This document shows positions 44,236-61,727 of a stretch of 64,000 bases of DNA, in pieces; within the stretch, counting starts at the first letter, position 1, and the number at the start of each line of letters is the position of its first letter. The DNA comes from Colwellia sp. 20A7 (GTDB lineage Bacteria; Pseudomonadota; Gammaproteobacteria; Enterobacterales; Alteromonadaceae). The notes under the pieces are model-generated. The model was not told where the DNA came from. It did not search any database and saw nothing but the letters and a program-made list of their open reading frames with translations. A program made the translations under genes and the position numbers. Location: positions 3,534,001 through 3,598,000 of the forward strand of contig NZ_CP047130.1 in NCBI RefSeq assembly GCF_009832865.1, written 5' to 3'.

Positions 44236-44847
44236 TTAAATTTTTAACATACCTTCTTTTTCAATAAATTCGATTATCTCGGCTAAACCTTGTTTAGTTT
44301 TCATATTAGAGAAGATAAACTTCTTATCGCCGCGCATCTTTTTAGTGTCTCTGTCCATCACTTCAAGTGAAGCACCCACTAAATCAGCAACATCAATCTT
44401 ATTAATAATCAGTAAATCAGATTTAGTTATACCAGGACCACCTTTACGTGGAATTTTATCGCCTGCTGAGACATCAATAACATAAATGGTTAAATCAGAT
44501 AATTCAGGGCTAAAAGTAGCGCTTAAGTTATCACCACCACTTTCAATTAACACGAAGTCTAAATTAGGGTGTAATGCTTGTAGCTCATCAATAGCGGCTA
44601 AGTTCATCGAAGCATCTTCACGAATAGCGGTATGAGGACAACCACCAGTTTCTACGCCCATAATTCTATCTGCTGCTAGTGCATCATTTTTAGTTAAAAA
44701 TTCAGCATCTTCACGGGTATAAATATCGTTAGTAACTACAGCCATATTATATGTATCACGTAAGGCTAAACATAACTCGCGTAATAGGGCTGTTTTTCCT
44801 GAACCAACAGGACCACCAACACCAATACGTAAAACTTGTTTTTTCAT
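44236..44847 (-). CDS. ureG: Urease accessory GTPase UreG
   Basis: GTPase that powers nickel delivery into the urease active site, working with UreE, UreF and UreD. 203 residues, the usual length. Seen: P-loop [14 protein letters not shown] (8-21), the metal-binding CPH in [15 protein letters not shown] near 67-81, [15 protein letters not shown] near 103, and [12 protein letters not shown] near 149-160 (guanine specificity). It is 115 bases after the ureF stop, a larger gap than elsewhere in the operon. Confidence 0.97.
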
Positions 44848-44962: not shown

Positions 44963-45721
44963 CTACGAGCGAAACAGTCGTGAATATTGTGTTTCATGCC
45001 AAGCACTCGCCATCGCTAAATGCGGCAAACTAGTCCCTATATCTTCATCAGCTACCTTGTTCGACTTTTCAATAATGGTTAATGTATTTTCAGTTAACTC
45101 AAAGAGTAAATTTTGTGCTTGGGTTTGGCCAAGTGGCACAAGCTTTGTTGCAGCCGCAACTTGATTATCGATATATGTCCAACAGTAACCACTTTGTGCT
45201 GAAATTAAATCAAGTTTAAAAACATACGCGCAAAGTGCAAAAGCACTAACAAAACTAATTTCTTGTAAATCGATTATTGCTTGGTAAGGCGTGATATCAA
45301 TACTATCAAGTTGCTTAATCAAACGTATCAACGCTTTTCCCATTGCTAAATCAGCCAACAATAATTCATGACTTTCTCGACAAGCAATCAAATGAGTATT
45401 CCATTCGCTAAACACCGCTAAATCATCATTGTTTAATGCGGTAAATAATCGCTTTAAAATAGCTAAGTCAGTTTGCGCAATAGATTCTGCTAAGTTAATA
45501 TTTATCCAACTAGCGGTCGTTTCAGGTGATACTAACCAGCCCATTTCCACCGCATACTCTAACCCTTGAGAAAACGAAAAACCACCAACAGGCAAATTAG
45601 CACTACATAGCTGTAAAAGCCTATTAAGTTGAATTGGATCAGCTTGTGGCTTTTCTAATGACTCAGTTACTGAAGCAACAGGTTTAACTTCTGACGCTTT
45701 AGTATACGTGTTAGTGTGCAT
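44963..45721 (-). CDS. ureF: Urease accessory protein UreF
   Basis: Part of the UreD-UreF-UreG complex that activates urease. The start is placed at ATG 45721 ([12 protein letters not shown]), overlapping the ureE stop by 11 bases. The far-upstream ATG at 45796 lies inside ureE and would add 25 residues that only mirror the ureE His-tail DNA. Product 252 residues, still with a longer N-terminal tail than usual. Seen: [28 protein letters not shown], the UreF hallmark near 35-62 of this start, and [20 protein letters not shown] at the end. Confidence 0.92.
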
Positions 45722-46169
45722 GAGAATGTGAGTGCCCATGACTGCCTTTGCTATAAGCACCATTTTCAGGTTCGAAAACAGTCGGCGTATGGTCAACCGT
45801 TAAACCGTATTTTTCCGCAAGCTCTTCTAACACATAGTCAGGCTTAAAGCGTACCCATAACTCGCCAATTTGTAATGAAGTATGGCGATTACCTAAGTGA
45901 TAACAGACTTTACAAAAAGTTAACCAATCGGTTGCCGTTGCCGTCGCTACGGGTTCATTAGCACCTTTAATTTCAATAAATTGACCACATTCAGTTTTTA
46001 AAACTTCCCCCACTAACAAGGGGTGACCACGTTCCATAAAAATACCAATATCTAAACCACTATCAGTTTTACTTTTAATTCGGGCTTTTTTTCGCGTGTC
46101 TTGATCTAACGTAATTGAATCGGCTATTTCACTATGAGTATGATCTAAACGTTCATATGCTTGTAACAT
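45711..46169 (-). CDS. ureE: Urease nickel metallochaperone UreE
   Basis: 152 residues. N-terminal peptide-binding domain and C-terminal metal domain with [15 protein letters not shown] near 50-65, [20 protein letters not shown] near 91-110 including the nickel-binding His, and a short His-rich tail HGHSHSHAH. Binds Ni(II) and hands it to UreG. Located 73 bases after ureC; its 3' end overlaps ureF. Confidence 0.96.
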
Positions 46170-46242: not shown

Positions 46243-47946
46243 TTAAAACAGACAGTATAATTGTGCGAGAGGCAATGAAGTTGCTGGCTCACATGTTAAT
46301 AGCTCGCCGTTAGCGCGTACTTCATAAGTTTGCGCATCCACTTCAATTTTTGGTTGCCAATTATTATGAATCATATCGTCTTTACCAATATTTCTCGTGT
46401 TTTTACAAACACCAACTAAGCGTGTCATACCAATTTTTTCAGGTACACCGGCATCAATTGAAGCTTTAGACATAAAAGTCATCGATGTTTGCGCTGCCGC
46501 ACTCCCGAGTGCGCCAAACATTTTACGATAATAAACCGGTTGTGGCGTTGGAATTGATGCATTGGCATCTCCCATTGGCGCTGCGGCAATCATGCCAGAC
46601 TTTAAAATAGTCGCCGGTTTAATCCCAAAAAATGCAGGTTTCCATAACACAAGATCAGCTAATTTACCGACTTCAATAGAGCCAACTTCGTGACTAATGC
46701 CGTGGCTAATCGCTGGATTGATGGTATATTTTGCGATATAACGTTTAGCACGAAAGTTATCGTTACGTTCAGTATCAGGCGCTAAAGGTCCACGCTGCTG
46801 CTTCATTTTATGGGCAGTTTGCCAAGTACGCGTGATCATTTCACCGACACGGCCCATTGCTTGTGAATCAGACGAAATCATACTGATAGCACCCAAATCA
46901 TGCATAATATCTTCAGCGGCAATACTTTCTTTACGGATACGTGAATCAGCAAAGGCAATATCTTCTGGAATTGATGGATTTAAATGATGACACACCATTA
47001 ACATGTCTAAATGTTCATCAATAGTGTTAACAGTATAAGGTCTTGTTGGGTTAGTTGACGAAGGTAACACATTCGGTTCGCCACAAGCGCGGATAATATC
47101 AGGTGAATGTCCACCGCCCGCACCTTCAGTATGATAGGTATGAATAGTACGCCCTTTAAATGCTGCCAAGGTATCTTCAACAAAACCAGACTCATTCAAG
47201 GTATCGGTATGAATAGCAATTTGCACATCATAACGCTCTGCTACTGATAAACAGTTATCAATTGCTGCTGGTGTTGTGCCCCAATCTTCATGCAACTTTA
47301 ACCCACAAACGCCCGCTTCAATTTGTTCTTCAAGGGCAATAGGTAAACTCGCATTACCTTTACCGAGAAAACCAAAGTTCATTGGGAGATCATTGGTTGC
47401 TTGTAGCATTTTATGAATATACCAAGGACCTGGCGTGCAAGTAGTCGCTTTAGTGCCTGTTGCAGGGCCTGTTCCGCCACCAATCATGGTAGTAACGCCA
47501 GACATTAATGCTTCATCGACTTGTTGTGGGCAAATAAAATGAATATGCGCATCAATACCACCAGCGGTAAGAATTTGACCTTCACCGGCGATAACTTCGG
47601 TGCCAGGACCTACTTCAATATCAATATTGTCTTGAATATCAGGGTTACCTGCTTTACCGATAATAGCAACACGGCCGTCTTTAATACCAACATCGGCCTT
47701 AACGATGCCCCAATGATCAAGAATAAGGGCATTGGTAATAACCAAATCTACCGTGTCAGCACAAGATGCTTGGCTTTGTCCCATACCATCACGAATAACT
47801 TTACCGCCACCAAAGGTTATTTCTTCACCATATTCAGTAAAATCTTTTTCTACTTCTATCCATAAGTCGGTATCTGCCAAACGAACTCGATCGCCAGTGG
47901 TAGGCCCAAACATATGTGCATAGGAGTGTTTATCAATAGTAGCCAT
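46243..47946 (-). CDS. ureC: Urease alpha (catalytic) subunit
   Basis: 567 residues, the standard length. Holds the di-nickel centre: HIHF (near 134-137), the carbamylated Lys in [10 protein letters not shown] (near 219), [16 protein letters not shown] (near 270-285), and the flap with [13 protein letters not shown] (near 320), plus Asp in [12 protein letters not shown] (near 362). All ligands are present, so it should be active. Urea is hydrolysed in the cytosol to ammonia and carbamate. The ATG follows the ureB stop by one base. Confidence 0.98.
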
Positions 47947-47947
47947 A

Positions 47948-48265
47948 TTATACTTCTCCCTCTAAGCTGCCTTGAATGTCACCACGAAAACCGAATACGC
48001 GGCGCTTGCCACGATAAGCGATTAAAGTCACTTCACGTTCTTGACCGGGTTCAAAGCGAACAGCGGTACTTGAGGTAATGTCTAAACGATAACCTCGCGT
48101 TAATTCTCGGTCGAATTTAAGTGCGCTGTTCACTTCATAAAAATGATAATGTGAGCCAACTTGAATCGGGCGATCACCCGAATTAGCAACGGTTATCTTT
48201 ATCTGCTCACGACCCACATTGAGTTCGCGGTTACCACTGTCTGTTTTTATTTCACCAGGGATCAT
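47948..48265 (-). CDS. ureB: Urease beta subunit
   Basis: Start placed at ATG 48265 ([15 protein letters not shown]), the common UreB beginning, with GAGAGAAG five bases upstream; the ATG at 48280 overlaps that ribosome site. 105 residues. Seen: [21 protein letters not shown] (about 26-46) and [25 protein letters not shown]-like [15 protein letters not shown]. It lies 64 bases after ureA and one base before ureC. Confidence 0.96.
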
Positions 48266-48329
48266 AATGGCTTCTCTCATGATTAATGTTTAACTAAAAT
48301 CAACTAAGTAAATCAATTACAAAAATCAA

Positions 48330-48632
48330 TTAAATAATGGGGTTGTGAACGGTAACAAGCTTAGTTCCATCAAGGAATGTTGCTTCAACTTGCACATCAG
48401 AAATTAATTCGGCAACCCCTTCCATCACTTGATCACGCGTTAGTAAAGTACGACCGTAATCCATCATTTCAGCAACGGTTTTACCATCACGAGCGCCCTC
48501 AACAATTTCCATAGAAATATAAGCCATCGCCTCAGGGTAATTTAATTTTACGCCACGTTTTAAACGTCGTTCAGCTAATAGTGCCGCAGTGAAGAGCAAT
48601 AACTTGTCTTTTTCTCTTGGTAATAAATCCAT
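48330..48632 (-). CDS. ureA: Urease gamma subunit
   Basis: 100 residues, exactly the family length. Seen: [20 protein letters not shown] at the start, [14 protein letters not shown] near 26, [13 protein letters not shown] near 47, and [15 protein letters not shown] at the end. Separate gamma, beta and alpha subunits are the usual bacterial layout. It lies 57 bases after ureD. Confidence 0.97.
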
Positions 48633-48689: not shown

Positions 48690-49646
48690 TTAAGTGTGCC
48701 AAACACGTGGGATATTGGCCTCTTTATTGAGGTATAGCGGTCTTATCTTCTGCCATAACTGAATAAAAAGTGCCTTGCACTCTTCTGCATGCTGTCCCAA
48801 ATAACGTATCACTAATAATTTACGTATTTGGCTAATACTAATTTTGTGCTCTGCACCCGCTTCAAGCATACATTCACGTAATTTTTCCACAAGAACTTTA
48901 TTGTCAGCAACACTCAGTTGCTCATCAGGCACGTAAGCCATAAAGGTAGCAAAAACACTGTGATTATTTAAACCTGCCATATGCTGATGGATGTCATTGT
49001 CAGGCTTAATCGCTATTCTATCGTGATACATTAATGTACCTTCACAATACACTCGATTTAACTGTGTATAGCTGCCTTGTTTAAATAAATGACCTGCACT
49101 TGGTAAACCTAAGCAAGTAATATCCCAACCTAAGTAAGCGCTATCTTTTGTTAAATGTACATCAACAGTATTAAAGCCATCAGCACCTTCATACACAATC
49201 GTTTCTAATGGAAAGTTTTCACATTTGGCCTTAGCAGCGAGTCTCAGTTCACAATACTGTACTTGCTTAGAGTCGCCAATAGAAAGATCTTCACGGGCAC
49301 GATAAAAACGATTAGCACCCGGAGTTGTCACTAAACTATGGGCTTGCTCATTAACTTGAATCTTGATTCGCAGTTCATCCCCCGAAACTATGCCTGCTGG
49401 TGGATGCAATAAATAGATATGCGCGCAATCCCGCCCTTCTGGGTAAAACGCTTTTTGCACGGTTAATGGGCCTTGTCGCTTAGTACGCGTAAGCTGACTA
49501 CCATTAGGGGTTAAGCTGAATTCTAGAAATAAATTAGCAAGCCATGAATTTTTAGGTACATGAGCAATAGTCGTTACATTATTGATGACATTTTTTTCTG
49601 CGCTTGTATCTAAGGTATTAGATTTATCTTCAATGTTTTCTATCAT
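48690..49646 (-). CDS. ureD: Urease accessory protein UreD
   Basis: 318 residues with an N-terminal tail of about 35 residues longer than usual. Seen: GPLTVQKAFYPEGRDCAHIYLLHPP (spread over about 61-85), GIVSGDEL, VTTPGANRFYRA near 108-119, and DITCLGLPSAGHLF near 177. Scaffold binding the apo-urease and UreF. First ure gene, 116 bases after urtE, so the urt and ure blocks are likely one long transcript or two adjacent ones. Confidence 0.95.
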   Translation of the reverse strand: MIENIEDKSNTLDTSAEKNVINNVTTIAHVPKNSWLANLFLEFSLTPNGSQLTRTKRQGPLTVQKAFYPEGRDCAHIYLLHPPAGIVSGDELRIKIQVNEQAHSLVTTPGANRFYRAREDLSIGDSKQVQYCELRLAAKAKCENFPLETIVYEGADGFNTVDVHLTKDSAYLGWDITCLGLPSAGHLFKQGSYTQLNRVYCEGTLMYHDRIAIKPDNDIHQHMAGLNNHSVFATFMAYVPDEQLSVADNKVLVEKLRECMLEAGAEHKISISQIRKLLVIRYLGQHAEECKALFIQLWQKIRPLYLNKEANIPRVWHT

Positions 49647-49762: not shown

Positions 49763-50458
49763 TTAAACGGCTAAATATTTACCAACTAGTTCATCAGTTA
49801 ATTCAGGCATTGGACCCGTTGCAATAACATGACCTTTCTCCATTAACACAAACTCTTCACCAACAGCACGCGCAAATGGCAATTTCTGCTCAACCAAAAC
49901 AATGGTAATGCCATGTTCTTTATTTAGCTTCAATAAAACGTCACGAATTAATTGCACTATATTAGGCTGAATACCTTCATTTGGCTCATCCAGAATTAAA
50001 ATATCAGGATTTAAAACTAATGCTCTAGCAATCGCAAGTTGCTGCTGCTGTCCCCCCGACAAATCACCACCACGGCGATGTAGCATTTCTTTTAATACCG
50101 GAAACAACTCATAAATATGCTCAGGAATTATTTTACTTTTTTGGCGCTTACAATTAAGGCTTATTTTTAAGTTTTCTTCAACAGTTAACAAAGGAAAAAT
50201 ATGACGCCCTTGTGGTACATAGCCAACACCTATTTCTGGACGCGATTCCACTGAGCTTTTCGCCATATCTTTGTCATTGATAACAAGGCTACCTGCACTA
50301 ATCGGCAACATACCCATAATAACTTGTAACAAGGTCGTTTTACCTACCCCATTGCGCCCCATAATACAGGTACGAGAGCCCTTCTTAATGTTAAGGTTTA
50401 AGTCCCATAATATTTGTGTGCCGCCGTATTTTTGATCTACTGAGGTTAACTCAATCAT
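49763..50458 (-). CDS. urtE: Urea ABC transporter ATPase UrtE
   Basis: 231 residues. Walker [12 protein letters not shown] (about 34-44), signature LSGGQQQQLAIARAL (about 135-149), Walker B LILDEPNEGIQPNI, H-loop in VEQKL. The branched-chain amino-acid transporter type (LivF-like) with the urea-specific NEGIQPNIV motif. The start overlaps the urtD stop as TAATG. Confidence 0.95.
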   Translation of the reverse strand: MIELTSVDQKYGGTQILWDLNLNIKKGSRTCIMGRNGVGKTTLLQVIMGMLPISAGSLVINDKDMAKSSVESRPEIGVGYVPQGRHIFPLLTVEENLKISLNCKRQKSKIIPEHIYELFPVLKEMLHRRGGDLSGGQQQQLAIARALVLNPDILILDEPNEGIQPNIVQLIRDVLLKLNKEHGITIVLVEQKLPFARAVGEEFVLMEKGHVIATGPMPELTDELVGKYLAV

Positions 50459-51321
50459 TATGCTTGTGCTCCTACTTCCTGCTCAGCCACATTATTTGCA
50501 GCGGTATTATCTTGTCCATCATCTTCACCTAAGTAAACTTTGATAACTTCTGGATTAGCCTGTACTTCTGACATTGTTCCTTCAGCAAGCACTGAGCCTT
50601 GATGTAAAACCGTTACTTTTTTAGCAATAGAACGAACAAAGGCCATATCATGCTCAACCACAATAACTGAATGCTTACCAGCCAACGAAGTCAATAATTC
50701 CGCTGTACGTTCAGTTTCTTGCCCTGTCATACCGGCAACGGGTTCATCCACCAATAATACACGTGGCTCAGCCGCCAACAACATACCAATTTCTAACCAT
50801 TGTTTTTGACCGTGTGATAAACGACCCGCAGGATAATAAGCCTCTTTAACTAAACCAATGGTTTGTAGAATCTCCCCAATTCTATCTCTTTGTTCGCCGC
50901 TTAATTTATGAAATAAAGAAGTCCAAATACCTTTATCACCCGCTAAACTCAGTTCAATATTTTCAAATACAGTTAACGCTTCAAAAACGGTTGGCTTTTG
51001 GAATTTACGTCCTATGCCTGCTTTAGCAATTTCAGACTCATCTAATTGCAGTAAATCAATTTGCTGACCAAAATTAACTTTACCTTTGTCAGGGCGAATT
51101 TTACCAGTAATAACATCCATCAAGGTTGTTTTACCTGCACCATTGGCACCAATTAAACAGCGTAATTCACCGTCGTTAATATATAAATTCAAATCATTTA
51201 ACGCTTTAAAACCTTCAAAACTTACACTGACGTCTTCAACATATAAAATAACACCATGTCGTGTATCTGGCTTAATGTTTTCTGTCGCGGTAAGCGGGCT
51301 ACCTGATTTATCAACAATCAT
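50458..51321 (-). CDS. urtD: Urea ABC transporter ATPase UrtD
   Basis: 287 residues. LivG-like: EDVSVSFEGFKALNDLNLYI near 29-48, Walker A GANGAGKTTLMD, KIGRKFQKPTVFE-type AGIGRKFQKPTVFEAL near 107-122, signature LSHGQKQWLEIGMLLA, Walker B VLLVDEPVAGMT. The substitution SHGQKQ in place of SGGQQ is typical of UrtD. A 30-residue Asp/Glu-rich C-terminal tail is extra. Overlaps urtC and urtE by one base each. Confidence 0.95.
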   Translation of the reverse strand: MIVDKSGSPLTATENIKPDTRHGVILYVEDVSVSFEGFKALNDLNLYINDGELRCLIGANGAGKTTLMDVITGKIRPDKGKVNFGQQIDLLQLDESEIAKAGIGRKFQKPTVFEALTVFENIELSLAGDKGIWTSLFHKLSGEQRDRIGEILQTIGLVKEAYYPAGRLSHGQKQWLEIGMLLAAEPRVLLVDEPVAGMTGQETERTAELLTSLAGKHSVIVVEHDMAFVRSIAKKVTVLHQGSVLAEGTMSEVQANPEVIKVYLGEDDGQDNTAANNVAEQEVGAQA

Positions 51322-52547
51322 TATTTAGCCTCCGCTTTGGTTGTTTTTGTCTCATTTTGATCATTTACTTCTTTAACTACTAACATTTCTGGCTCTGCAC
51401 TCTTAAATATTGATAATTTATCAAAAAGGTTTGGCAATAAACCGGCAATACCTTTAGGTAACAATAACGTGACTAAAACAAAAAGCCCGCCTAATGCGAA
51501 TAACCATGCTTCAGGCATAATCGCCGTAAATCGTGTTTTTGCATAACTAACCACAATTGCGCCGATAATTGCGCCGTATAACGTACAACGACCGCCAATC
51601 GCCACCCAGATAACCATTTCTATTGAGTTAAGCGGTGAGAATTCGCCCGGATTAATAATACCAACTTGTGGTACATATAAAGCGCCAGCGACACCTGCCA
51701 ACATGGCTGAAACAACAAATATCCACACTTTATAATGTTCAGGTTTATAGCCAACAAAACGAACGCGACTTTCAGCATCACGAGTCGCCGTAACCACACG
51801 GCCCATTTTAGAGTTAACAATAAAATTACTGATCCAATAACCAATGCCTAAAGCGACAGCGGTGATCACAAATAAACTGAGCTTGGTGTGCGGATCTTGT
51901 AGGGAGAAACCAGCTATTTCTTTAAAATCAGTTAAGCCATTATTACCGCCAAAGCCCATTTCATTGCGAAAGAAAGCTAGCATTAAGGCATAAGTCATCG
52001 CTTGCGTCATAATAGATAAGTAAACACCACTTACCCGTGAGCGAAATGCCATTGAACCAAAGATATAAGCGAGTAAACCAGGGCCAATAAACACCATGGC
52101 GATCATCCAGACAATACTGCTAGAGCCGGCCCAAAACCACGGAAGTTCGGTCCAGCTTAAAAATACCATAAAGTCGGGTAAGTCAGGATTTCCATAGACA
52201 CCTCGGTCGCCAATTTGACGCATAAGGTACATCCCCATGGCATAACCACCTAAAGTGAAAAATGCACCATGTCCCAAACTTAATATGCCGCAATATCCCC
52301 AGACAAGGTCAACTGCTAACGCTAGTAAGGCATAGCATAAATACTTACCAAATAAGCTGACGGTGTAATCACTGACATGTAAAAAAGATCCTTCTGCAAA
52401 AAATAAATTACATATTGTGACGTAGAGTGTGGCAATAAATAAAGTGCCAACAACAACATGTAAATGACTTAATGTTTTGAATATTTTTTGCATTGAAAAT
52501 GGTTCTTTTGAGTAATTTTCAGTTAATGCGTTAGTTGAGTTAGTCAT
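51321..52547 (-). CDS. urtC: Urea ABC transporter permease UrtC
   Basis: 408 residues, LivM-like permease with about ten membrane segments. Seen: LVWGYCGILSLGHGAFFTLGGYAMGMYL near 82-109, RVSGVYLSIMTQAMTYALML near 172, NNGLTDFKEI near 203, and ATRDAESRVRFVGYKPEHYK near 258. Hydrophilic N- and C-terminal tails. One-base overlaps on both sides bind it to urtB and urtD. Confidence 0.95.
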   Translation of the reverse strand: MTNSTNALTENYSKEPFSMQKIFKTLSHLHVVVGTLFIATLYVTICNLFFAEGSFLHVSDYTVSLFGKYLCYALLALAVDLVWGYCGILSLGHGAFFTLGGYAMGMYLMRQIGDRGVYGNPDLPDFMVFLSWTELPWFWAGSSSIVWMIAMVFIGPGLLAYIFGSMAFRSRVSGVYLSIMTQAMTYALMLAFFRNEMGFGGNNGLTDFKEIAGFSLQDPHTKLSLFVITAVALGIGYWISNFIVNSKMGRVVTATRDAESRVRFVGYKPEHYKVWIFVVSAMLAGVAGALYVPQVGIINPGEFSPLNSIEMVIWVAIGGRCTLYGAIIGAIVVSYAKTRFTAIMPEAWLFALGGLFVLVTLLLPKGIAGLLPNLFDKLSIFKSAEPEMLVVKEVNDQNETKTTKAEAK

Positions 52548-54205
52548 TAGTCTGCCGCCCTCCCTTTTTGAGGAAATAATCCTTTAGGTCGTTTTTGTAT
52601 AAACAACACTAAACCAACTAGCACAATAATATTGGCTAATACTGAACCAACTACCGGCTCTAAGAATTTATTAATTGATCCCAAAGACATCGCTGCAACT
52701 AAAGTGCCCCACAAGTTACCTACGCCACCAAAGACAACAACCAAGAATGAGTCAATAATATAAGCCTGACCTAAGTTAGGGCCTACGTTGGTTAACTGAC
52801 TTAATACTACGCCAGCGACACCTGCTATACCTGAGCCTAAACCAAAGGTGATCGCATCAACCCTATCACTTTTAATACTTAACGCTCTGGCCATATCTCG
52901 GTTTTGCGAAACCGCTCGAACATGTAAACCTAATGACGATTTTTTCAAAATAAGTAGTAAGGTAAAAAACACCATTAATGAAAAAATAATGATATATAAA
53001 CGGTTATACGTTAATGAAAAAACGGGATTGATCACCCAAGATCCTGTCATCCATTCAGGCGCTTGTACTTGGCGGTTAAGAGGAGAAAAGATAGTTCTCA
53101 CTAATTGTTGTAAAATTAATGAAATACCAAAGGTCGCTAACAAGGTTTCTAGTGGACGCCCTTTCAAATAACGAATAACGCCACGTTCGATAATAATACC
53201 GACAAAACCTGACACTAAAAATGCAGCCGGCACGGCCATTAATAACGAATATTCAATTAAGTTAGGAAAAGCTAATTGAATAACATAAGTAGTATAAGCG
53301 CCTAGCATCATCATTTCGCCATGAGCCATATTAATAACGCCCATAACACCAAAGGTGATGGTTAAACCAATAGCCGCAAGTAATAAAACTGAGCCTAAAC
53401 TTAAGCCAAAGAAAATATTTTCAATAATGCCGAAAAAGCTGCGTTTATCTTCAATACTACTAATGACTTTCGTTAAACTTGCAGCTAACGCTTTTTGCTC
53501 TGGGGTTTTATTATTAGCTGGTAACGCCGCTAACATTTTAACCATAGTATTATTTACTGATGGCTCTAAGGTATCTTCAAGCTGAGTGATAGCAGCCATT
53601 ATTTGATTATGATTGCCTGTTTTTAACTGATTAAGCAATAAAGTGATATTCATTAATTCGCGAACATCATCATCTTTTTCGGTCGTAATTAAAGATTGTA
53701 CAGCCGCAAGGCCAGATTCTGATGGGTTATCAAGTAATTGCTTAACCGCTTGAATACGCACAGCCTTATTTTGATCCGTTAAGTCGATTTTGGCAATAAA
53801 GCTTCGAATATCACCACGTAATCTATTGTTAGTTTTAACTTTTCTAATTTTAGATTTTTTAACGGGTACTAGTACTTCCGTCGTTAAAATATTAGTGATG
53901 GTGTAAAGTGAATCTTCTTTGACCGCAATAACAACCGTTTTATCGGCTTTAAGATAATAAAGATCACCTTCCATCATTGCCTTTAATACGTCACGTGTTT
54001 TGTTATCACGAGTTATCGCTATTTTTTCCACTAGCGGTGACATTTTGTTGAGTTTAGTTGTTGGTAATTGATTCACTAATTGTGACAACGTTGAGTCTGT
54101 ATGAGCACTTTCAACCGTACTCATATCTTGTGTATTAGCAAAGGTTTGCCAAGATATAATACAACTAAATATAACCGAGAATAATACAGCGAATATTCGC
54201 TTCAT
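52547..54205 (-). CDS. urtB: Urea ABC transporter permease UrtB
   Basis: Start placed at ATG 54205 (MKRIFAVLFSVIFS), with AAGGA seven bases upstream; the ATG at 54268 has no ribosome site. 552 residues. A signal peptide (ends near TFA) precedes a periplasmic helical region of about 220 residues with HEAT-like segments (DNPSESGLAAVQSLI), present in proteobacterial UrtB but absent from cyanobacterial forms. The LivH-like permease follows (GVMGVINMAHGEMMMLGAYT near 300, GRPLETLLATFGISLILQQ near 355, FGLGSGIAGVAGVVLSQ). A terminator separates it from urtA. Confidence 0.93.
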   Translation of the reverse strand: MKRIFAVLFSVIFSCIISWQTFANTQDMSTVESAHTDSTLSQLVNQLPTTKLNKMSPLVEKIAITRDNKTRDVLKAMMEGDLYYLKADKTVVIAVKEDSLYTITNILTTEVLVPVKKSKIRKVKTNNRLRGDIRSFIAKIDLTDQNKAVRIQAVKQLLDNPSESGLAAVQSLITTEKDDDVRELMNITLLLNQLKTGNHNQIMAAITQLEDTLEPSVNNTMVKMLAALPANNKTPEQKALAASLTKVISSIEDKRSFFGIIENIFFGLSLGSVLLLAAIGLTITFGVMGVINMAHGEMMMLGAYTTYVIQLAFPNLIEYSLLMAVPAAFLVSGFVGIIIERGVIRYLKGRPLETLLATFGISLILQQLVRTIFSPLNRQVQAPEWMTGSWVINPVFSLTYNRLYIIIFSLMVFFTLLLILKKSSLGLHVRAVSQNRDMARALSIKSDRVDAITFGLGSGIAGVAGVVLSQLTNVGPNLGQAYIIDSFLVVVFGGVGNLWGTLVAAMSLGSINKFLEPVVGSVLANIIVLVGLVLFIQKRPKGLFPQKGRAAD

Positions 54206-54349
54206 TATGTATTCCTTCTTAATTTTAAAAACAGACAATTTATACTTATACTCAAAGAATTCTGTCACTAACCTGCGCTTGGTTTAGGTTAAAAGTGCTT
54301 TGAGTATAAAATGTGTCAGCTGCTTATCGCTCTTAATAAAATGAAAAAA

Positions 54350-54395: not shown

Positions 54396-55679
54396 TTAGA
54401 AACTTTGTCCTGAACATTTAGCGGTTGTTACATCAAAATTTCCGCATTTTACTGGTGCTGTCCAATCTGAAATCAAGTTTTTTGAACTTGGTAAGAAGTC
54501 TGACCATGCATCACCAATAACAGTACCCGGTGTTTCTGAAACCACTTCAAACTGACCGTCTTCTTGAATTTCGCCAATAAGTACCGGCTTAGATAAATGA
54601 TGATTCGCATTCATTACCGCAATACCACCCGTTAAGTTAGGTACAGCAATACCAATTAAACCTTGCTCAACAGCATCTACGTCAGTAGTACCTACTTTCT
54701 CTACTGCTTTTGCCCACATTTTAAAACCGATATAAGTCGCTTCCATAGGGTCATTAGTGACACGTTTGTCATCACCAATATATTTTTTCCATTTAGCAAT
54801 AAACTCTTCATTTTCATCAGTTTCAACGCTTTGGAAGTAATTCCAAGCAGCTAAGTGACCAACAAGTGGTTTAGCATCAAAACCAGAAAGCTCTTCTTCG
54901 CCAACAGAGAAAGCAACAACAGGAATATCTTCAGCAGAAATACCTTGGTTACCTAGTTCTTTATAGAAAGGAATATTTGCATCCCCATTAATAGTTGAAA
55001 CAACCGCTGTTTTCTTACCTTCAGAGCCAAATTTTTTGATATCTGATACAATACCTTGCCAATCAGAATGACCAAATGGTGTATAACTGATCATAATATC
55101 TTCGTCTTTAACGCCTTTAGACTTTAAATATGCTTCTAAAATTTTATTCGTTGTACGTGGGTAAACATAATCGGTACCCGCTAACACCCAACGCGTTGCA
55201 CCAATTTCATCCATTAAATACTCAACCGCAGGGATCGCTTGTTGATTCGGCGCAGCACCGGTATAAAATACATTTTTAGATGATTCTTCACCTTCATATT
55301 GCACCGGGTAAAATAACAAACCGTTTAACTCTTCAAGTACCGGTAATGCCGACTTACGAGAAACTGATGTCCAACAACCAAAAATAACATCAACTTTGTC
55401 TTTCGCTAATAATTCACGTGATTTCTCTGCAAATAATGGCCAGTTAGAAGCAGGATCAACCACAACGGCTTCTAGTTTTTTACCTAATAAACCACCGGCT
55501 TTGTTTTGCTCTTCAATCATCATTAAAACGGTATCTTTTAATGTTGTTTCAGAAATAGCCATCGTGCCTGAAAGTGAATGTAATACACCAACTTTGATGG
55601 TATCTGCAGCCATAGTCACCTGCGCAACTAAACTACTCGCTATAATTGAACTGGCTAAAATCAGCTTTTTAAATTTCAT
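54396..55679 (-). CDS. urtA: Urea ABC transporter substrate-binding protein UrtA
   Basis: 427 residues. Signal peptide ends near VTMAAD (residue 24). Mature part begins TIKVGVLHSLSGTMAISE, the UrtA hallmark, then DPASNWPLFAEKSRELLAKD near 72-91, VFGCWTSVSRKSALPVLE near 98, LLFYPVQYEGEE near 120, and WVLAGTDYVYPRTTN near 158. Periplasmic urea (or short-chain amide) receptor of the transporter. The same family includes the FmdD amide-binding proteins; the neighbouring urease genes favour urea. Confidence 0.95.
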   Translation of the reverse strand: MKFKKLILASSIIASSLVAQVTMAADTIKVGVLHSLSGTMAISETTLKDTVLMMIEEQNKAGGLLGKKLEAVVVDPASNWPLFAEKSRELLAKDKVDVIFGCWTSVSRKSALPVLEELNGLLFYPVQYEGEESSKNVFYTGAAPNQQAIPAVEYLMDEIGATRWVLAGTDYVYPRTTNKILEAYLKSKGVKDEDIMISYTPFGHSDWQGIVSDIKKFGSEGKKTAVVSTINGDANIPFYKELGNQGISAEDIPVVAFSVGEEELSGFDAKPLVGHLAAWNYFQSVETDENEEFIAKWKKYIGDDKRVTNDPMEATYIGFKMWAKAVEKVGTTDVDAVEQGLIGIAVPNLTGGIAVMNANHHLSKPVLIGEIQEDGQFEVVSETPGTVIGDAWSDFLPSSKNLISDWTAPVKCGNFDVTTAKCSGQSF

Positions 55680-55797: not shown

Positions 55798-56736
55798 CTA
55801 AAAAGTAATCAGTGCTTCAACAGCGAATGAGTTCACATCAACATCGTTCACTTCATCCATACGGTATTCAAACACCATCAATAAGTTGTCGTTTACTACA
55901 TAGCTTGGTGAAATTGTGATACCAGTTGCGTCTTCAAACATTGCGCCACTCTCGTCTTCAATTTCCCAGTCGTTGTAACGCAGTGTTAAGCCAAATTTCT
56001 CAGTTATGGTATAGTTAGCCATCACTAAATAACCACTTGCGTCACTACCTTCAAATGCACTGTCTTCAGCAGTGTTATATTCCACAGCCAAAGTTAACGC
56101 GTCTTTTGAATAACTTGCCCAGGTGTTAATTAATTCAACATCACCATCTTTTGAATAAAAACCTTTAATAGTAATTTCATCTGTTGGCATTAACGCCAGC
56201 ATAGTTTCAATACCTGGATGTTCTGAATCAGTTGAGTCCGGGCCGGCTAAATCATTTACAACCGACACAGCTACAGCAAATTTATCGCCGCTATAAAGAC
56301 CTGAAACCCCTTGTTGATAATACCCATAAAAATATTTGGCATAGCCAGTACCAGAGTATTGGAACAAACCAGTAGGCTCTTCTGTTTCCCAACCTGAATA
56401 ACTTAAGAAACGACCGGCTTTAACACTAAAGTTATCGGTCAGCGCGTACGTGATAAACGCTTGTTCAAGGTCAACACCTTCATCCGCGTTTTGATACTCA
56501 ATATCGACATTAGCGGTTAACTTGTTGCCAAAATCATAACCAACATTAATTTCTACTTGATCAAGGCCTGCATCATGCGTTGACTCGCCACCATCTGTAT
56601 CAGTAGCGTAATAAGACATATCAATGAAACCACTGATGCTTAATGGATCTTTCTTCTCTTCTGCTTGCACTGATGTAGCGCCAAATGAAAGTAGTAATAT
56701 CGCAGCTAAGGGTGTTAATTTAGTAAGTAATTTCAT
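55798..56736 (-). CDS. Outer-membrane porin-like beta-barrel protein, probably for urea
   Basis: 312 residues. Signal peptide ends near SVQAE (residue 25). The mature protein is acidic and rich in alternating aromatic/polar strands (LSISGFIDMSYYATDTDG; QVEINVGYDFGNKLTANVDIEY; FSVKAGRFLSYSGWETEEP) and ends NSFAVEALITF with terminal Phe, typical of a 14-16-strand barrel. It is the first gene of the leftward urea block, so it probably lets urea through the outer membrane, as the UrtA-linked porins of other marine bacteria may. Similar barrels occur in unrelated contexts, so the substrate is inferred. Confidence 0.8.
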   Translation of the reverse strand: MKLLTKLTPLAAILLLSFGATSVQAEEKKDPLSISGFIDMSYYATDTDGGESTHDAGLDQVEINVGYDFGNKLTANVDIEYQNADEGVDLEQAFITYALTDNFSVKAGRFLSYSGWETEEPTGLFQYSGTGYAKYFYGYYQQGVSGLYSGDKFAVAVSVVNDLAGPDSTDSEHPGIETMLALMPTDEITIKGFYSKDGDVELINTWASYSKDALTLAVEYNTAEDSAFEGSDASGYLVMANYTITEKFGLTLRYNDWEIEDESGAMFEDATGITISPSYVVNDNLLMVFEYRMDEVNDVDVNSFAVEALITF

Positions 56737-57076
56737 GTTAAGTTTCCATGTTAAAAAATTAATAAACGTGTTTTGGTTATCTTTTTAGTTGATAACTCTC
56801 AACTCAGGTATATGTTGAACTGGGTTTAGTATGTCGGTTATCGTCAAGGACTAATATTCGCAAAAGCACGCAAAGGACTACGCATAACTGCGCATATTTT
56901 TTTTAGTGAATTTATGTATGATGGCGCTCGCGTGCAAAACTGTAGATACGATTTTTTGAGTTAATCTGTTAACCTTAAAGCATATTTTTCACTATTTTCC
57001 TTGAGTTGCTTTAATTGGGCATATCAAAATAAAAACGGTTTTATGTAAACCAACCATATGAGTAAGTTACTTTTAT
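56737..57076. promoter_or_regulatory. Divergent promoter region, urea block / transporter-kinase gene
   Basis: 340 bases. AAGGACTA occurs twice at 56846-56853 and 56873-56880, and CGCA occurs four times between 56858 and 56893 (TTCGCA, CACGCA, TACGCA, TGCGCA). This is the densest motif cluster in the gap and a candidate binding place for the response regulator encoded at 60438. No TGGCAC-N5-TTGC sigma-54 box was found by eye. Confidence 0.45.
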
Positions 57077-60000
57077 ATGCAGTCGAATCAAAAAATATTA
57101 CCAACACGAAGAATCTACAATAAGCTTGTTGCGAACGAGATGATGGAAGATTTTGCTTTGCGCTTTACCGCAAGGCGAGCAAGACGATGGTCACTCAGTA
57201 GAATTGCTATCACCGCACTTGGTATTGTTTCTTTTCTGGTTTTAGAAGCTATTGGAGGCGCGATCACACTGAACTATGGTTTTACCAACTCAGTATGGGC
57301 TATTCTGGCGGTCGTATTGGTTATTTTCTTTACCGGTTTACCGATCAGCTATTACGCCGCTAAATATGGAGTTGATATCGACTTACTCAGTCGAGGTGCG
57401 GGGTTTGGTTATATTGGTTCAACCATCGCTTCCTTAATTTATGCGTCCTTTACGTTTATATTTTTTGCACTCGAAGCTGCCGTAATGGCGATGGCACTAA
57501 AAATTTCACTTGGCATTCCCCTCAGTATTGGCTATATCATCAGTGCAGTAGTGGTCATTCCGTTAGTCACACATGGCATTGCCTATATCAGTCGTTTTCA
57601 AGTATGGACCCAGCCATTATGGGTTGTTCTGCAATGCTTACCTTTGTATTTTGTCTTCAGCCATGAAGATAGCCAACTGCAAGGCTGGTTTAACTTTAAC
57701 GGGTTAGCGGGAGAGCAAGGCGGATCTTTTGATATTTTACTTTTTGGTGCCGCCTCTGCAGTATTACTTGCGTTAGTTGCGCAAATTGGTGAACAAGTCG
57801 ATTTTTTACGTTTTTTGCCTGAAAAACCTAAAAAGAATACTTGGCGCTGGTGGTGCGCTCTTATTGCCGCGGGGCCTGGCTGGATTATATTTGGTGCCTT
57901 AAAATTATTACTTGGTTCATTTTTGGCTTATCTTGCTTTACAACAAGGTATTCCCGCAGATGTGGCTAGTGACCCTGCTCACATGTATCAACTAGCCTTT
58001 GGTTATGTTTTTGATAATGTAGACTTAGTTATTCTTTTTTCTTGTTCTTTTGTCATCATTTCACAATTAAAGATTAATGTGGCTAATGCTTATGCAGGCT
58101 CCTTAGCTTGGTCTAATTTTTTCTCCCGTGTCACACATAACCACCCTGGTCGTGTTGTATGGATGGTTTTTAATGTTGCTATTGCCTTATTACTGATGGA
58201 GTTAGGCATTTACCAAACCATTGAAAGTATGCTGTCAGTGTATTCAGTATTAGTCTTGGCTTGGCTCAATTCTGTGGTAGCAGACTTAGTTATTAATAAA
58301 CCTTTAGGCATAAGCCCCAAACATATCGAATTTAAACGCTCACATTTATACGACATTAATCCTGTTGGCGTTGGTTCAATGTTAATAGCGTCAGTAGTTG
58401 GTTTTACTGCACATTTTGGCTGGTATGGTGAAACAGTAAAAGCACTCGCTTCGTTTATTGCTTGTGGCTTACCCTTTATCACAGTGCCATTGATAGGTTG
58501 GTTAACTAAAGGTAAATTCTATTTAATTGATGAGAACAGAGACGAAATAACCAGTATTACCCAATGCCATATTTGTGAAAATAGTTTTGATCAAGAAGAC
58601 ATGACTTTTTGCCCTGCCTACGGCAAAGCCATTTGTTCTTTATGTTGCTCTTTAGATGTACGCTGTGGCGACCAATGCCGCACAGAAGCAACATTATCTA
58701 AACAGTCTTATCGTTTATTTAAACGTTTTTTTAGTGATGCCTTATTAAGTAAACTGTCGACCCCATTAGTACATTTTATTGCCGTCACCATTGCCCTGAG
58801 TTGTATTGGCGCAGCTATTATTTTTCTTATTTATGTCCAACTGCCCATGGAAAACAATGAAATTAGAGCTGTTTTTGCCAATACCCTGATTAAAATATTT
58901 TTTGTCTTGGTTATTATTATCGGCGTAGTCAGTTGGCTATTTATACTAGCCCGTAGCAGTAATGTTTTAGCGATGCGAGAATTACGCTCGCAAACCAAAG
59001 CATTAGCTGATGAATCGAACGCCCATGAAAAAACAGCGTTAGCACTGCAAGACGCCAAAGAAATAGCTGAAGCCGCCAACAATGCTAAAAGTCGTTATCT
59101 TGCCGGCTTAAGCCATGAATTAAGAACACCATTAAATGTGTTATTAGGTTATGCCCAATTATTAAGTCAAGATCAGGAGCTTCCTGCAAGGCAGCGCGAA
59201 ACATTAGCGATTGTAAAGCGTAATGGGGAACATTTAGCGGATTTAATTGAAGGGCTATTAGAAATATCTAAAATTGAAGCAGGTCGAGTTACGCTGCAAC
59301 GAGATGAATTTAACTTGAAGGCTATTTTGCAACAATTAGTTGATATGTTTCAAATGCAAGCAAGCCAAAAAGGCATCAAATTCCATTATATTACCCAAGA
59401 GTCCGTACCCGATTATGTCGCAGCAGATAAACAACGTTTTCGCCAAATTCTAATTAATTTAATTTCTAATGCGATTAAATATACCACGCAAGGTTCAATA
59501 ACGTTTGAAGTAAGTTACCGCAGTCAGGTGGCCAGTTTTAGTATCACCGACACAGGATCTGGCATCTCTCAAGAGAATCAAGAATTGATATTTAAACCGT
59601 TCGAGCAGGTACGAAATTCTCATTCACAAGCCGTTGGCGGTACAGGCTTAGGCTTAACCATTTCACGCTCACTCGCGGAGTTAATGGGCGGAGAAATAAC
59701 CTTAGCGAGTACTTTAGGGCAAGGTTCAACCTTTACATTTCGCTTAATGCTATCATCAATTAGTCGAAAACAAAGTGAACCCGAATATGCTAAAACTAAG
59801 GCTATTGGCTACGATGGCAGTCGGCAACACATTTTAGTGGTTGATGACAATAAAAACCAACGACGCTTAATGCACGACTTATTATCGCCTCTAGGTTTTA
59901 CTTTTTTTAGCGCTGCTGATGCGAATGAAGGCTTTGATATATTAGAAAAAAATCATATTGATTTAATTTTACTTGATGTACAAATGCCAGTCGTTAATGG

Positions 60001-60445
60001 CTGGACAATGTTAAAACAATTACGCGAAAGAATGTATTTAATGCCAATTATTATGGTATCGGCTAATGCCAGAGACGCCGAATTTAACTTGCAGGCAGAA
60101 GGCTATCATAATGATTACATTGCCAAACCCTTAAATTTTGATACCTTATTAGGAAAAATAGGCATATTTTTAGAGTTAAATTGGCAATATCAAAATATCC
60201 AGTCAGAAAAAAAGTTAACTGAAAATGCTAAATACGGCACTAAACCTTTAGCAAAAGAATCAGAGTATCAAGCATTAATCGCTATGGCCGAAATTGGATA
60301 TTTATCAGGCTTTAAAGAAAAACTGTTAGAATTAAAAGAACACTATTATTTGCCTGCCGTGGTCGACATACAATTAAAAGAGTATCTTGAGCTATGTAAT
60401 TTCCCTGCAATTATTCAATATTTAAATGAGTTAAAACATGAGTAG
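57077..60445 (+). CDS. NCS1-permease-like membrane domain fused to hybrid histidine kinase
   Basis: 1122 residues. Order: NCS1/cytosine-permease-like membrane domain with about 12 segments (about 35-480; LLSRGAGFGYIGSTIASLI near 108-126); a cysteine cluster C497-x2-C ... C530-x3-C534 that may bind zinc; two more membrane segments (about 565-625); a coiled linker; HisKA with phospho-acceptor His680 in GLSHELRTPLN; a HATPase (ISNAIKY, DTGSGI, GGTGLGLTIS; about 785-895); a receiver with Asp967 in LILLDVQMP; and a 90-residue tail. It resembles CrbS-type transporter-kinases, but those carry an SLC5 domain. Its 3' end overlaps the regulator gene by eight bases. Divergent from the urea block, so a urea or related nitrogen signal is plausible. 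Confidence 0.9.
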   Translation: MQSNQKILPTRRIYNKLVANEMMEDFALRFTARRARRWSLSRIAITALGIVSFLVLEAIGGAITLNYGFTNSVWAILAVVLVIFFTGLPISYYAAKYGVDIDLLSRGAGFGYIGSTIASLIYASFTFIFFALEAAVMAMALKISLGIPLSIGYIISAVVVIPLVTHGIAYISRFQVWTQPLWVVLQCLPLYFVFSHEDSQLQGWFNFNGLAGEQGGSFDILLFGAASAVLLALVAQIGEQVDFLRFLPEKPKKNTWRWWCALIAAGPGWIIFGALKLLLGSFLAYLALQQGIPADVASDPAHMYQLAFGYVFDNVDLVILFSCSFVIISQLKINVANAYAGSLAWSNFFSRVTHNHPGRVVWMVFNVAIALLLMELGIYQTIESMLSVYSVLVLAWLNSVVADLVINKPLGISPKHIEFKRSHLYDINPVGVGSMLIASVVGFTAHFGWYGETVKALASFIACGLPFITVPLIGWLTKGKFYLIDENRDEITSITQCHICENSFDQEDMTFCPAYGKAICSLCCSLDVRCGDQCRTEATLSKQSYRLFKRFFSDALLSKLSTPLVHFIAVTIALSCIGAAIIFLIYVQLPMENNEIRAVFANTLIKIFFVLVIIIGVVSWLFILARSSNVLAMRELRSQTKALADESNAHEKTALALQDAKEIAEAANNAKSRYLAGLSHELRTPLNVLLGYAQLLSQDQELPARQRETLAIVKRNGEHLADLIEGLLEISKIEAGRVTLQRDEFNLKAILQQLVDMFQMQASQKGIKFHYITQESVPDYVAADKQRFRQILINLISNAIKYTTQGSITFEVSYRSQVASFSITDTGSGISQENQELIFKPFEQVRNSHSQAVGGTGLGLTISRSLAELMGGEITLASTLGQGSTFTFRLMLSSISRKQSEPEYAKTKAIGYDGSRQHILVVDDNKNQRRLMHDLLSPLGFTFFSAADANEGFDILEKNHIDLILLDVQMPVVNGWTMLKQLRERMYLMPIIMVSANARDAEFNLQAEGYHNDYIAKPLNFDTLLGKIGIFLELNWQYQNIQSEKKLTENAKYGTKPLAKESEYQALIAMAEIGYLSGFKEKLLELKEHYYLPAVVDIQLKEYLELCNFPAIIQYLNELKHE

Positions 60446-61328
60446 TAAAATTAGCGATATTGTACTGGTAGTCGATGATTCGCCTGAATCGTTAGGTATG
60501 CTAAATGCTGCCTTAAATACCCAGGGTTATACCGCGTTAGTGGCATTAAACGGCGTTCAGGCATTAGCTATTATTGATAAAGTAGAGCCCGACGTTATTC
60601 TATTAGACGCGGTAATGCCCGAAATGGATGGTTTCGAAACGTGTAGAAGGCTAAAAAAATTACTGCCTCATACGCCTATTATTTTTATGACTGGCCTTAC
60701 TGATATTGAAGATGTTGTTAAAGGGTTTGAAGCTGGCGGTATTGATTATGTTACTAAGCCGATATCTCCCGACGAAGTGATTGCCCGTATAAAAACACAC
60801 GTACAAACGGCGAAACAAGCTTTAAGTGCGCAAAACGCTTTAGATCATGCAGGTAAAAATGTTTTTTGTGTGAGCAAACAAGGTAGATTGTCTTGGGCTA
60901 CACCCTATGTTCATGAGTTTATTGACCAAATATCAACTATTGATAACAGCCCATGGGCAACATTAGCACCTATGATTGAAGCATGGTTATCTAGTGATCA
61001 TCAGAAAAATTTAGTTATTAAAAACTTTAGTGAAGCGGTAACTATTTTTTATGAACGTCAACAAGACGAGATGCACTTATTAAGCATAGTTAAAACGAAA
61101 CAAGACAAGTCTCCCGTCGATTTACAACAAGCACTCCCCGTTACTAAACGTGAATCTGAAGTTTTATATTGGGTTTCATATGGTAAAACGAGTTGGGAAA
61201 TATCTCAAATTTTAACAATGAGCCCCAGGACAGTAAATAAACATCTGGAGCAAATTTATAAAAAGTTAGGCGTTGAAAACCGCACATCTGCGGCAGCAAT
61301 ATCTATTCGTATTCTAGAAGCAGAATAA
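60438..61328 (+). CDS. LuxR-type response regulator paired with the transporter-kinase
   Basis: 296 residues. Receiver domain (about 6-125) with acidic pocket VVDDS, phospho-acceptor Asp57 in VILLDAVMPEMDG, Thr/Lys in MTGLT and YVTKPIS. C-terminal LuxR/NarL HTH (about 230-296): VTKRESEVLYWVSYGKTSWE and MSPRTVNKHLEQIYKKLGVEN. A middle segment of about 100 residues (GKNVFCVSKQGRLSWATP...) looks like a small PAS-like or sensor insert, longer than the linker of NarL-type regulators. Starts within the last codons of the kinase gene (ATGAGTAG), so both are made together. Probable target: the divergent urea block. Confidence 0.9.
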   Translation: MSSKISDIVLVVDDSPESLGMLNAALNTQGYTALVALNGVQALAIIDKVEPDVILLDAVMPEMDGFETCRRLKKLLPHTPIIFMTGLTDIEDVVKGFEAGGIDYVTKPISPDEVIARIKTHVQTAKQALSAQNALDHAGKNVFCVSKQGRLSWATPYVHEFIDQISTIDNSPWATLAPMIEAWLSSDHQKNLVIKNFSEAVTIFYERQQDEMHLLSIVKTKQDKSPVDLQQALPVTKRESEVLYWVSYGKTSWEISQILTMSPRTVNKHLEQIYKKLGVENRTSAAAISIRILEAE

Positions 61329-61350: not shown

Positions 61351-61415
61351 AACTAAATTGGTAACTAAATCCACAGTTAAATCGATAACTAAATCGATAA
61401 CTAAATCGACAGTTA
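61351..61415. repeat. 12-bp tandem repeat between convergent genes
   Basis: Five units of the form AACTAAATCGAT (AACTAAATTGGT, AACTAAATCCAC, AGTTAAATCGAT, AACTAAATCGAT, AACTAAATCGAC) and part of a sixth, reaching the stop codon of the small-protein gene. Confidence 0.85.
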
Positions 61416-61727
61416 ATGAACTCCGTTATCACTTAACGTTTCATGGTGATGTGTTTTTTTATTTGTACTTTGTGCGTCTTTAGCTAGATCCTCAACATGA
61501 ATAATCGGCTGATTTCTAACACACATAAGAACTTCATTAAATAACTGACATGTACCTTTAAACAAGTCACCATCACCATTGGTATAAGAACATTCTTCTG
61601 TTTTCTGCATATTATCACAAGCCTGCCAAGGTGCCGTATGAGTATGAGAGTCATGAGCATTTGCAAGCTTGCTGCTACATAGCGTAATAATAAACAGGCT
61701 TACACATAAATTAATCAATTTGATCAC
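61413..61727 (-). CDS. Small secreted His/Cys protein coupled to the YHYH lipoprotein
   Basis: Start placed at GTG 61727, with GGGAGA seven bases upstream and a GTGA overlap with the stop of the preceding gene; the ATG at 61751 lies inside that gene. 104 residues. Signal peptide (IKLINLCVSLFIITLCSSKLANA), then HDSHTHT, five cysteines in the mature part (WQAC, EECSY, GTCQ, LMCVRN and pattern between) and a His-rich end (KKTHHHE). Periplasmic or secreted. His and Cys suggest metal binding; I recognise no named family. Function unknown but probably shared with the YHYH protein. Confidence 0.75.
   Translation of the reverse strand: MIKLINLCVSLFIITLCSSKLANAHDSHTHTAPWQACDNMQKTEECSYTNGDGDLFKGTCQLFNEVLMCVRNQPIIHVEDLAKDAQSTNKKTHHHETLSDNGVH

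Follow-up and report, generated by a model that had tools for sequence, protein, structure and literature searches.

The window analysed here is a stretch of 64,000 nucleotides of Colwellia sp. 20A7 (contig NZ_CP047130.1, positions 3,534,001 to 3,598,000). It carries a gene pair coding for a transporter-shaped sensor kinase and a LuxR-type response regulator, divergent from the genes of an outer-membrane porin, of a urea ABC transporter (urt) and of urease (ure). With a probability of about 0.7, this pair is a urea-sensing two-component system driving the porin-urt-ure genes; within this reading we infer the ligand, its binding and the direction of regulation. The reading is built on the anatomy of the pair, on the NCS1 fold of the model of the membrane half, on gene linkage, on a conserved palindrome tied to the urt promoter and on the re-use of the sensory module with other outputs.

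Organization and distribution of the gene pair

The sensor gene (57077..60445, + strand) codes for 1122 residues, as delimited from the open reading frame (ORF), Pfam matches, an AlphaFold2 (AF2) model and fold comparison. The protein begins with an NCS1 permease domain (residues 23-479, 57143..58513, the range aligned to CodB 7qoa), followed by a cluster of eight cysteines, hereafter Cys8 (residues 497-534, 58565..58678, from the alignment of fused relatives), and by two further long helices (residues 563-639, 58763..58993). Then come, by Pfam, HisKA (residues 670-736, 59084..59284), HATPase_c (residues 784-892, 59426..59752) and a receiver of the Response_reg family (residues 919-1027, 59831..60157). 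His680 and Asp967 are read in the sequence, so that the protein has all the parts of a hybrid histidine kinase. The sensor ORF overlaps by 8 bp that of the regulator (60438..61328, + strand), a protein of 296 residues with a receiver (9-119), a linker and a GerE domain (235-287) by Pfam, which is the arrangement of the NarL/FixJ type. The anatomy given in a preliminary description of this DNA, a 1122-residue fusion with His680 and Asp967 that overlaps a LuxR-type regulator by eight bases, is thus borne out by the ORFs and by Pfam. In the AF2 model, helices are found at 563-588 and 594-639, consistent with two extra membrane segments running into the kinase. The full-length match of the sensor is unique in the 4.58-Mb single-contig genome, the remaining matches covering kinase and receiver parts only. 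In Colwellia maritima (L051:10001-11921), the sensor gene is split in two ORFs, the first of which ends after 478 codons.

Relatives are numerous. A protein search gave at least 8000 candidates at E<=0.001 and, among the 120 matches listed, identity over residues 1-640 is 76-100%. A draw of genomes from the window's class contained matches in 18 of 369 (E<=1e-10), and a draw from its phylum in 52 of 398, with 58 matches (E<=1e-30). A scan of GTDB contigs confirmed at least 571 relatives. The best 80 of these (the named relatives) are closest to the query and therefore biased; they belong to Pseudomonadota, including Colwellia, Psychromonas, Vibrio, Pseudomonas, Bradyrhizobium and Rhizobium. 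The comparisons below use 154 loci: the 80 named ones, 56 taken from the 58 phylum matches, and 18 stretches that cover all but one of the 18 class-draw genomes. The window's own genome was omitted from the class draw, and the window and L046, both beside urease, from the phylum draw. All loci were searched with the urt and ure genes of the window and with formamidase and amidase references.

The membrane half resembles NCS1 permeases, not SLC5

The preliminary description had set the permease half apart from the SLC5 domain of CrbS and likened it to NCS1. The profile check bears out the first point directly, as PF00474 (SSF) does not match, and leaves the second without direct proof from the window protein: at E<=10, residues 1-528 give no match to PF02133 or to PF00474, and a PF02133 search of the genome at E<=0.001 does not retrieve the sensor gene. 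The NCS1-like label is therefore unprovable by Pfam from the single sequence. The NCBIfam cytosine permease model reaches the window protein at 2.3e-5, under the model cut-off, and matches 9 of 19 relatives at E<=1, the best at 4e-10. One of these 19 members matches PF02133, and the kinase-free relative L047 lies above the cut-off of that profile (31.8 versus 23.5 bits). The nearest solved folds to the model of the membrane domain are those of the NCS1 members CodB and Mhp1, nearer than other LeuT-type families. When the 19-member profile was compared by hhalign with E. coli CodB, the probability was 52% (E 1.4e-4), over residues 29-248 only; a search of solved structures with the profile of the permease half gave a single chance match at E<=10 and nothing else. 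Altogether an NCS1 fold of the membrane half is supported by the structural model, and the NCBIfam model and the PF02133 match of L047 agree with it.

An SSF/SLC5 identity was considered and rejected: no SSF match is found in the 19 relatives at E<=1, and the seven places that the SSF profile retrieves in the genome do not include the sensor gene. A permease family other than that of CrbS thus stands, the profile search having failed to place the domain in SSF.

A probably modified pocket and sodium site

According to the accessible text on its structure, CodB contacts its ligand through Gln105, Trp108, Phe204 and main-chain atoms of Ser203 and Ala207, its Na2 ligands include Thr278 and Thr279, and Arg216 and Tyr285 stay constant once diverse sequences are added (PMC9379551). 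These positions were transferred to the sensor with a MAFFT alignment with E. coli CodB; hhalign (29-248) agrees at the named residues of transmembrane helices 1, 3 and 6, and the part covering helix 8 comes from the single sequence alignment only. Conservation was read in 151 aligned fused relatives, the three kinase-free rows having been dropped. Arg216 and Tyr285 of CodB correspond to R245 and Y339. Gln105 becomes T126 (T in 149/151), Trp108 F129, the base-stacking Phe204 L233 (L in 147/151) and Ala207 Q236. In the Na2 site, Thr278 and Thr279 become K332 and I333, with lysine in 151/151 rows. E133, Q236, E239, Q240, R245, K332, N334 and Y339 are invariant in all 151. On this alignment, the nucleobase stack would be half lost, polar residues would now line the break in helix 6 and the sodium site would be replaced by a lysine. 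Compared with CodB and Mhp1, the sensor thus has a lysine for the Na2 threonine, a leucine for one stacking aromatic, and a kinase attached. The Na2 site conserved in CodB and Mhp1 is, by sequence alignment, not retained in the sensor family; it belongs to those two proteins and not to the fold, and its loss limits the claim of Na+ coupling, not that of the fold. L214 (10959-12452, + strand), a distant kinase-free NCS1 relative with 27.8% identity, has an arginine at the position of K332.

The pocket bears on a first alternative, in which the NCS1 half would bind a purine, a pyrimidine or a hydantoin-like nucleobase and control of the urea genes would reflect the formation of urea at the end of purine breakdown. 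The solved members CodB and Mhp1, which are the closest folds, do carry cytosine and hydantoins (PMC9379551), but the replacement of Phe204 and Gln105 speaks against such a ligand. So does the gene neighbourhood. No match to E. coli AllB, AllC, AllE, AllW, XdhA (part), XdhB, CodA (part) or YbbY was found in any of the 154 loci at E<=1e-10, a search that distant enzymes could escape, and the amide operons that are the commonest partners of the sensor (see below) have no purine logic. A nucleobase ligand therefore appears very unlikely, and the suggestion, made in the preliminary description, that a purine may be sensed finds no support.

Linkage to urea and short-chain-amide genes

In the phylum draw, 53 of the 55 fused sensors have at least 3 kb of upstream sequence, and urt, ure or fmd/ami genes occur in all 53 stretches. 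Such genes lie by the sensor in 70 of 71 named loci, a set biased to close relatives (the exception is L083), and urt, ure or fmd genes in 10 of 15 class-draw loci. A divergent UrtA-type gene is located within 4 kb in 42/53, 63/71 and 7/15 cases for the phylum draw, the named loci and the class draw, respectively. Where at least 4.6 kb were available, a homologue of the regulator was found 3.0-5.5 kb past the sensor start in 52/54, 74/74 and 11/15 loci, in the same order. The tendency of orthologues to sit by urt/ure genes, expected from the preliminary description, is hence complete in the phylum draw, provided that amide genes are counted with urea genes, and partial in the class draw.

The short-chain-amide operon, with formamidase and aliphatic amidase, is in fact the commoner partner. 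In this larger group the transporter UrtA is about 40% identical to that of the window, and the operon often continues with formamidase, FmdB and, in part, aliphatic amidase; the references used, FmdA (NF045496, 782.7 bits) and aliphatic amidase (NF009802, 715 bits), both score over their cut-offs. In Methylophilus, the fmd genes include a short-chain amide/urea transporter and a porin. A tree of the 154 rows has 96 amide-linked, 44 urea-linked, one doubly linked and 13 unlinked members. The linkage labels require 16 changes on this tree, versus a mean of 51 after shuffling, and urea-linked rows occur in several separate parts of it. Of the 16 rows in the starred set that contains the window, 12 are urea-linked and 4 unlinked. 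Four phylum-draw genomes (G509, G575, G596, G728) have two fused sensors, one by an amide operon and one by urease; in a fifth, G446, both are by amide genes. If the ligand were a small amide whose identity follows the operon, the two-sensor genomes and the pattern on the tree would be expected. The ligand class is thus probably urea and small amides, the sensors being taken to bind them.

An UrtA-like protein of an amide operon (L090:8415-9707, - strand) scores 557.1 bits with TIGR03407, whose cut-off is 492.75. Annotation pipelines would consequently name such amide transporters 'urea' transporters, which suggests that the models merge the two. For Ectopseudomonas guguanensis, the accessible text mentions, from annotation only, fmdA and another urtABCDE operon accompanied by a LuxR two-component pair (PMC13296017).

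A palindrome tied to the urt promoter

Motif discovery was performed on 82 non-redundant regions out of 150 upstream of sensor genes, all inverted repeats being counted. TACGTC-N4-GACGTA ranks first, with occurrences in 18/82 regions and none in 20 block shuffles (0.05 as a pseudocount). The exact TACG-N8-CGTA is present in 34/82 regions versus 0.35 in shuffles (with pseudocount) and, over all 150, in 77: 66/95 amide-linked, 9/43 urea-linked, 2/11 unlinked and 0/1 doubly linked. A matrix built from 62 training sites retrieves, at p<=0.01, 88/95, 24/43, 2/11 and 0/1 of the same classes, counts that are partly circular. In the window, the candidate operator of the response regulator is the imperfect palindrome ACTACGCATAACTGCGCATA (56877..56896), designated by the matrix and by a clade pattern. 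The window's set includes 12 urea-linked rows, from which no training site came; the matrix finds the site at p<=0.04 in 12/12 of them and at p<=0.01 in 10, either as TACGYA-N4-TRCGCA or in a form intermediate to the consensus. As for the four unlinked rows of the set, the site is exact in L032, reaches p 0.03 in L035 and is missing in L034, and L054 is too short.

The position of urtA was then compared in 126 rows with at least 200 bases ahead of this gene. Where urtA is divergent within 1.2 kb, the site lies ahead of the sensor in 11/12 urea-linked and 86/90 amide-linked rows, and it is often the same site as that of urtA. Where urea-linked urtA is divergent but farther (16 rows), seven rows, all of the window's set, keep the site upstream of the sensor; in the window, the first divergent gene is the porin, not urtA. 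The other nine, of a rhizobial branch, have no site ahead of the sensor and, in 9/9, a site starting 99-123 bases before urtA. Where urtA is not divergent (five rows), the site precedes urtA but not the sensor in 4/4 testable rows, L212 being left out. None of these 13 urtA regions had a part in motif discovery. As judged from these positions, the palindrome belongs to the urt promoter, because it stays before urtA where the sensor upstream region is without it, and the sensor gene merely shares the site when neighbouring. This strengthens the claim of an operator, not that of the ligand.

The clade pattern TACGYANNNNTRCGCATA has one exact match per genome in 4/4 genomes (that of the window included), each just before the sensor gene. 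Since the pattern was derived from upstream regions, its presence there is by construction, and what is new is that the four genomes contain no other exact match. The pattern may have wider targets beyond these sites. A scan of the intergenic region for sigma-70 promoters and terminators gave nothing above shuffles.

The cysteine cluster and the re-use of the module

The eight cysteines (497, 500, 512, 520, 523, 524, 530 and 534) are kept in 150/151 fused relatives, the remaining row being gapped there, so that the cluster proposed earlier at 497-534 proves conserved, next to two helices that the AF2 model also contains. A profile of the Cys8 stretch gave 36 matches in 32 of 249 genomes. As all 36 coincide with places of the permease search (compared by eye), Cys8 looks like a signature of the NCS1-sensor family. 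Between residues 480 and 669, the only Pfam match at E<=1 is Cript (E 0.26, under cut-off); Pfam may or may not hold a model for STAC. The ligand of the cluster is likely a metal. One may imagine that the permease half is an anchor, or a partner reporting Urt activity, and that the real sensor is Cys8, responding to a metal or to redox state, or another component. The confinement of so conserved a cluster to the family speaks for this idea, as does the need of urease for nickel. Yet seven of the invariant permease residues listed above (all but Y339) are equally conserved, linkage tracks urea and amide genes alike, and a kinase-free relative encoded within a urease operon has the permease but only four of the cysteines. 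We consider this alternative decidedly unlikely.

BLAST searches with the domains of the window matched the kinase in 149/150 fused relatives and the receiver in 142/150. Among the eight without a receiver match, L089 and L213 have N-terminally short ORFs excluded by the position filter and L092 is truncated by the end of its contig; Pfam does find a receiver in L044, and none in L039, L045, L200 and L207. By Pfam, L039, L200 and L207 are plain kinases, L044 is a PAS-PAS-kinase-receiver protein and L045 carries PAS-GGDEF-EAL. An amide gene (FmdA) occurs in the fetched stretches of L200 and L207 but in none of the other three. These two sensors (885 and 894 residues, from genomes G446 and G548 of another class of the same phylum) lack a receiver and a downstream regulator homologue, and a formamidase gene lies about 5.4-5.5 kb past the sensor start. 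L045 (7351-11019, - strand), which joins NCS1-Cys8 to PAS-GGDEF-EAL, has no urea or amide gene in its stretch; through it, the same input could possibly act on cyclic di-GMP.

Few relatives lack the kinase: L041 and L047 were found among 369 genomes, and the distant L214 among 398, where a search with L047 as query gave no other. Because L041 and L047, the latter on a long branch, are nested in the sensor tree, they may have lost the kinase. These forms bear on a further alternative, a dual-function urea transporter in which transport would be the main activity and the attached kinase would signal secondarily. The fold is a full transporter fold, and L047 adjoins ureG in a urease cluster. Nevertheless, a dedicated urea ABC transporter is encoded next door, CodB-type sodium coupling is unlikely because the Na2 threonine maps to the invariant K332, and the module is joined to three other output arrangements. 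This alternative thus seems unlikely; since the transporter half is attached to several outputs, a sensory role is the best reading of it.

The divergent porin-urt-ure genes and other neighbours

All the divergent genes lie on the - strand. The BBP2-like outer-membrane porin (55798..56736; PF07642, 56.7 bits) is followed by UrtA, the binding protein of the urea ABC transporter (54396..55679; TIGR03407, 568.9 bits for a cut-off of 492.75), and by UrtB (52547..54268, TIGR03409), UrtC (51321..52547, TIGR03408), UrtD (50458..51321, TIGR03411) and UrtE (49763..50458, TIGR03410), all over cut-off. The urease genes comprise UreA (gamma subunit, 48330..48632), UreB (beta, 47948..48280) and UreE (45711..46169), each passing its NCBIfam model, UreC (alpha, 46243..47946; TIGR01792, 985.7 bits) and UreG (44236..44847; TIGR00101, 342.1 bits). 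The ORF at 48690..49646, with no NCBIfam match at E<=1e-20, and that at 44963..45796, whose start is uncertain and which as listed overlaps ureE, we take from their position to be probable UreD and UreF, respectively. The UrtB ORF has 573 residues, about 280 of them ahead of the part covered by the UrtB model. Past the regulator, two ORFs (61413-62758, - strand) are found; the sequence of one of them shows HYHG/YHYH-like stretches.

Proposed mechanism

In the proposed mechanism, the NCS1-fold half would sit in the membrane as a urea receptor (transceptor). Binding, or a transport cycle set off by urea, would reach the histidine kinase by way of Cys8 and the two additional helices, and the kinase would phosphorylate the LuxR-type regulator. 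The latter would bind the palindrome in the shared intergenic region, turning on the porin, urt and ure genes on the divergent side and perhaps the sensor gene as well. Relatives would use this module to sense short-chain amides and to control amide-uptake and formamidase genes. Because Pfam finds no Hpt domain in the sensor, direct transfer from His680 to the regulator would be expected, with the fused receiver as a modulator; receiver-less members fit direct transfer, yet no homologue of the regulator adjoins them. In this scheme we infer the direct binding, the sign of the regulation (activation and not repression), the phosphotransfer route and the pairing of regulator and palindrome.

Several observations weigh against the scheme. 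Pfam gives no Hpt domain in the sensor through which phosphate might pass. Five of the 15 class-draw sensors (L034, L037, L039, L044, L045) are near no urt, ure or fmd gene, and the ten neighbouring proteins scanned, nine of which have Pfam matches, include no urea or amide gene. Linkage itself is co-inheritance and says nothing of which molecule binds. The exact palindrome is absent from the intergenic region of the window, which has only the clade variant, and is lacking in most urea-linked upstream regions, the matrix reaching 24 of 43 at p<=0.01. With one mismatch, TACGYANNNNTRCGCATA occurs 5, 13, 3 and 2 times in the four genomes, and its reversed form 2, 3, 2 and 2 times; in G717, one repeated word accounts for 8 of the 13 matches. 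Finally, a column scan found no single residue that cleanly switches between urea- and amide-linked sensors. Columns 397 and 398 differ between the classes, with G at 398 in 88/95 amide-linked rows and S, C, M, T, G and others in the urea clades.

Relation to known systems and significance

As in the SLC5-STAC kinases (CrbS/R, CbrA/B, RpuS/R), a membrane solute-transporter domain is fused here to a histidine kinase (PMC5715377, PMC9100948, PMC13022988). CrbS is likewise a hybrid kinase, whose LuxR-family partner CrbR needs an imperfect inverted repeat (PMC5715377). Unlike those kinases, the present sensor has an NCS1 domain, with Cys8 and two helices apparently where STAC sits, and its gene partners concern urea and amides, where theirs concern acetate, pyruvate or histidine. 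It would work like an SLC5-STAC kinase yet is not one, since a search for the SSF domain was negative; the input family of this transporter-kinase fusion is new. The Amt-type ammonium sensor kinase of Kuenenia also fuses a nitrogen-source transporter domain to a histidine kinase, with another transporter family and with ammonium, not urea (PMC5764959). The sensor has in common with the DUR3 urea transporters a LeuT-type fold and urea as likely ligand. DUR3 transporters belong to the SSS family. Among the matches listed from the open-access literature, taken by title and opening of the abstract, no NCS1-kinase fusion is described; most subscription papers lie outside that literature.

In the accessible text of the papers cited, transporter-kinase fusions ('transceptors') use SLC5 or Amt inputs; the present sensor has an NCS1 input and a cysteine domain of its own, and a ligand class, a target operon and a candidate operator can be given for it. 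More broadly, the chances are about even that NCS1-Cys8 is a portable, widespread and undescribed class of receptors for urea and small amides, with a lysine-occupied sodium site, a pocket on Gln236, Glu239 and Gln240, coupling through Cys8, and hybrid-kinase, other-kinase or GGDEF-EAL outputs. From the sequences compared, it seems that many bacteria detect urea through such a transporter-shaped kinase, which would probably switch on the genes of urea uptake and urease. This would be a possible answer to how many bacteria may decide on the uptake and breakdown of urea and small amides, a step of nitrogen cycling in the sea and in soil.

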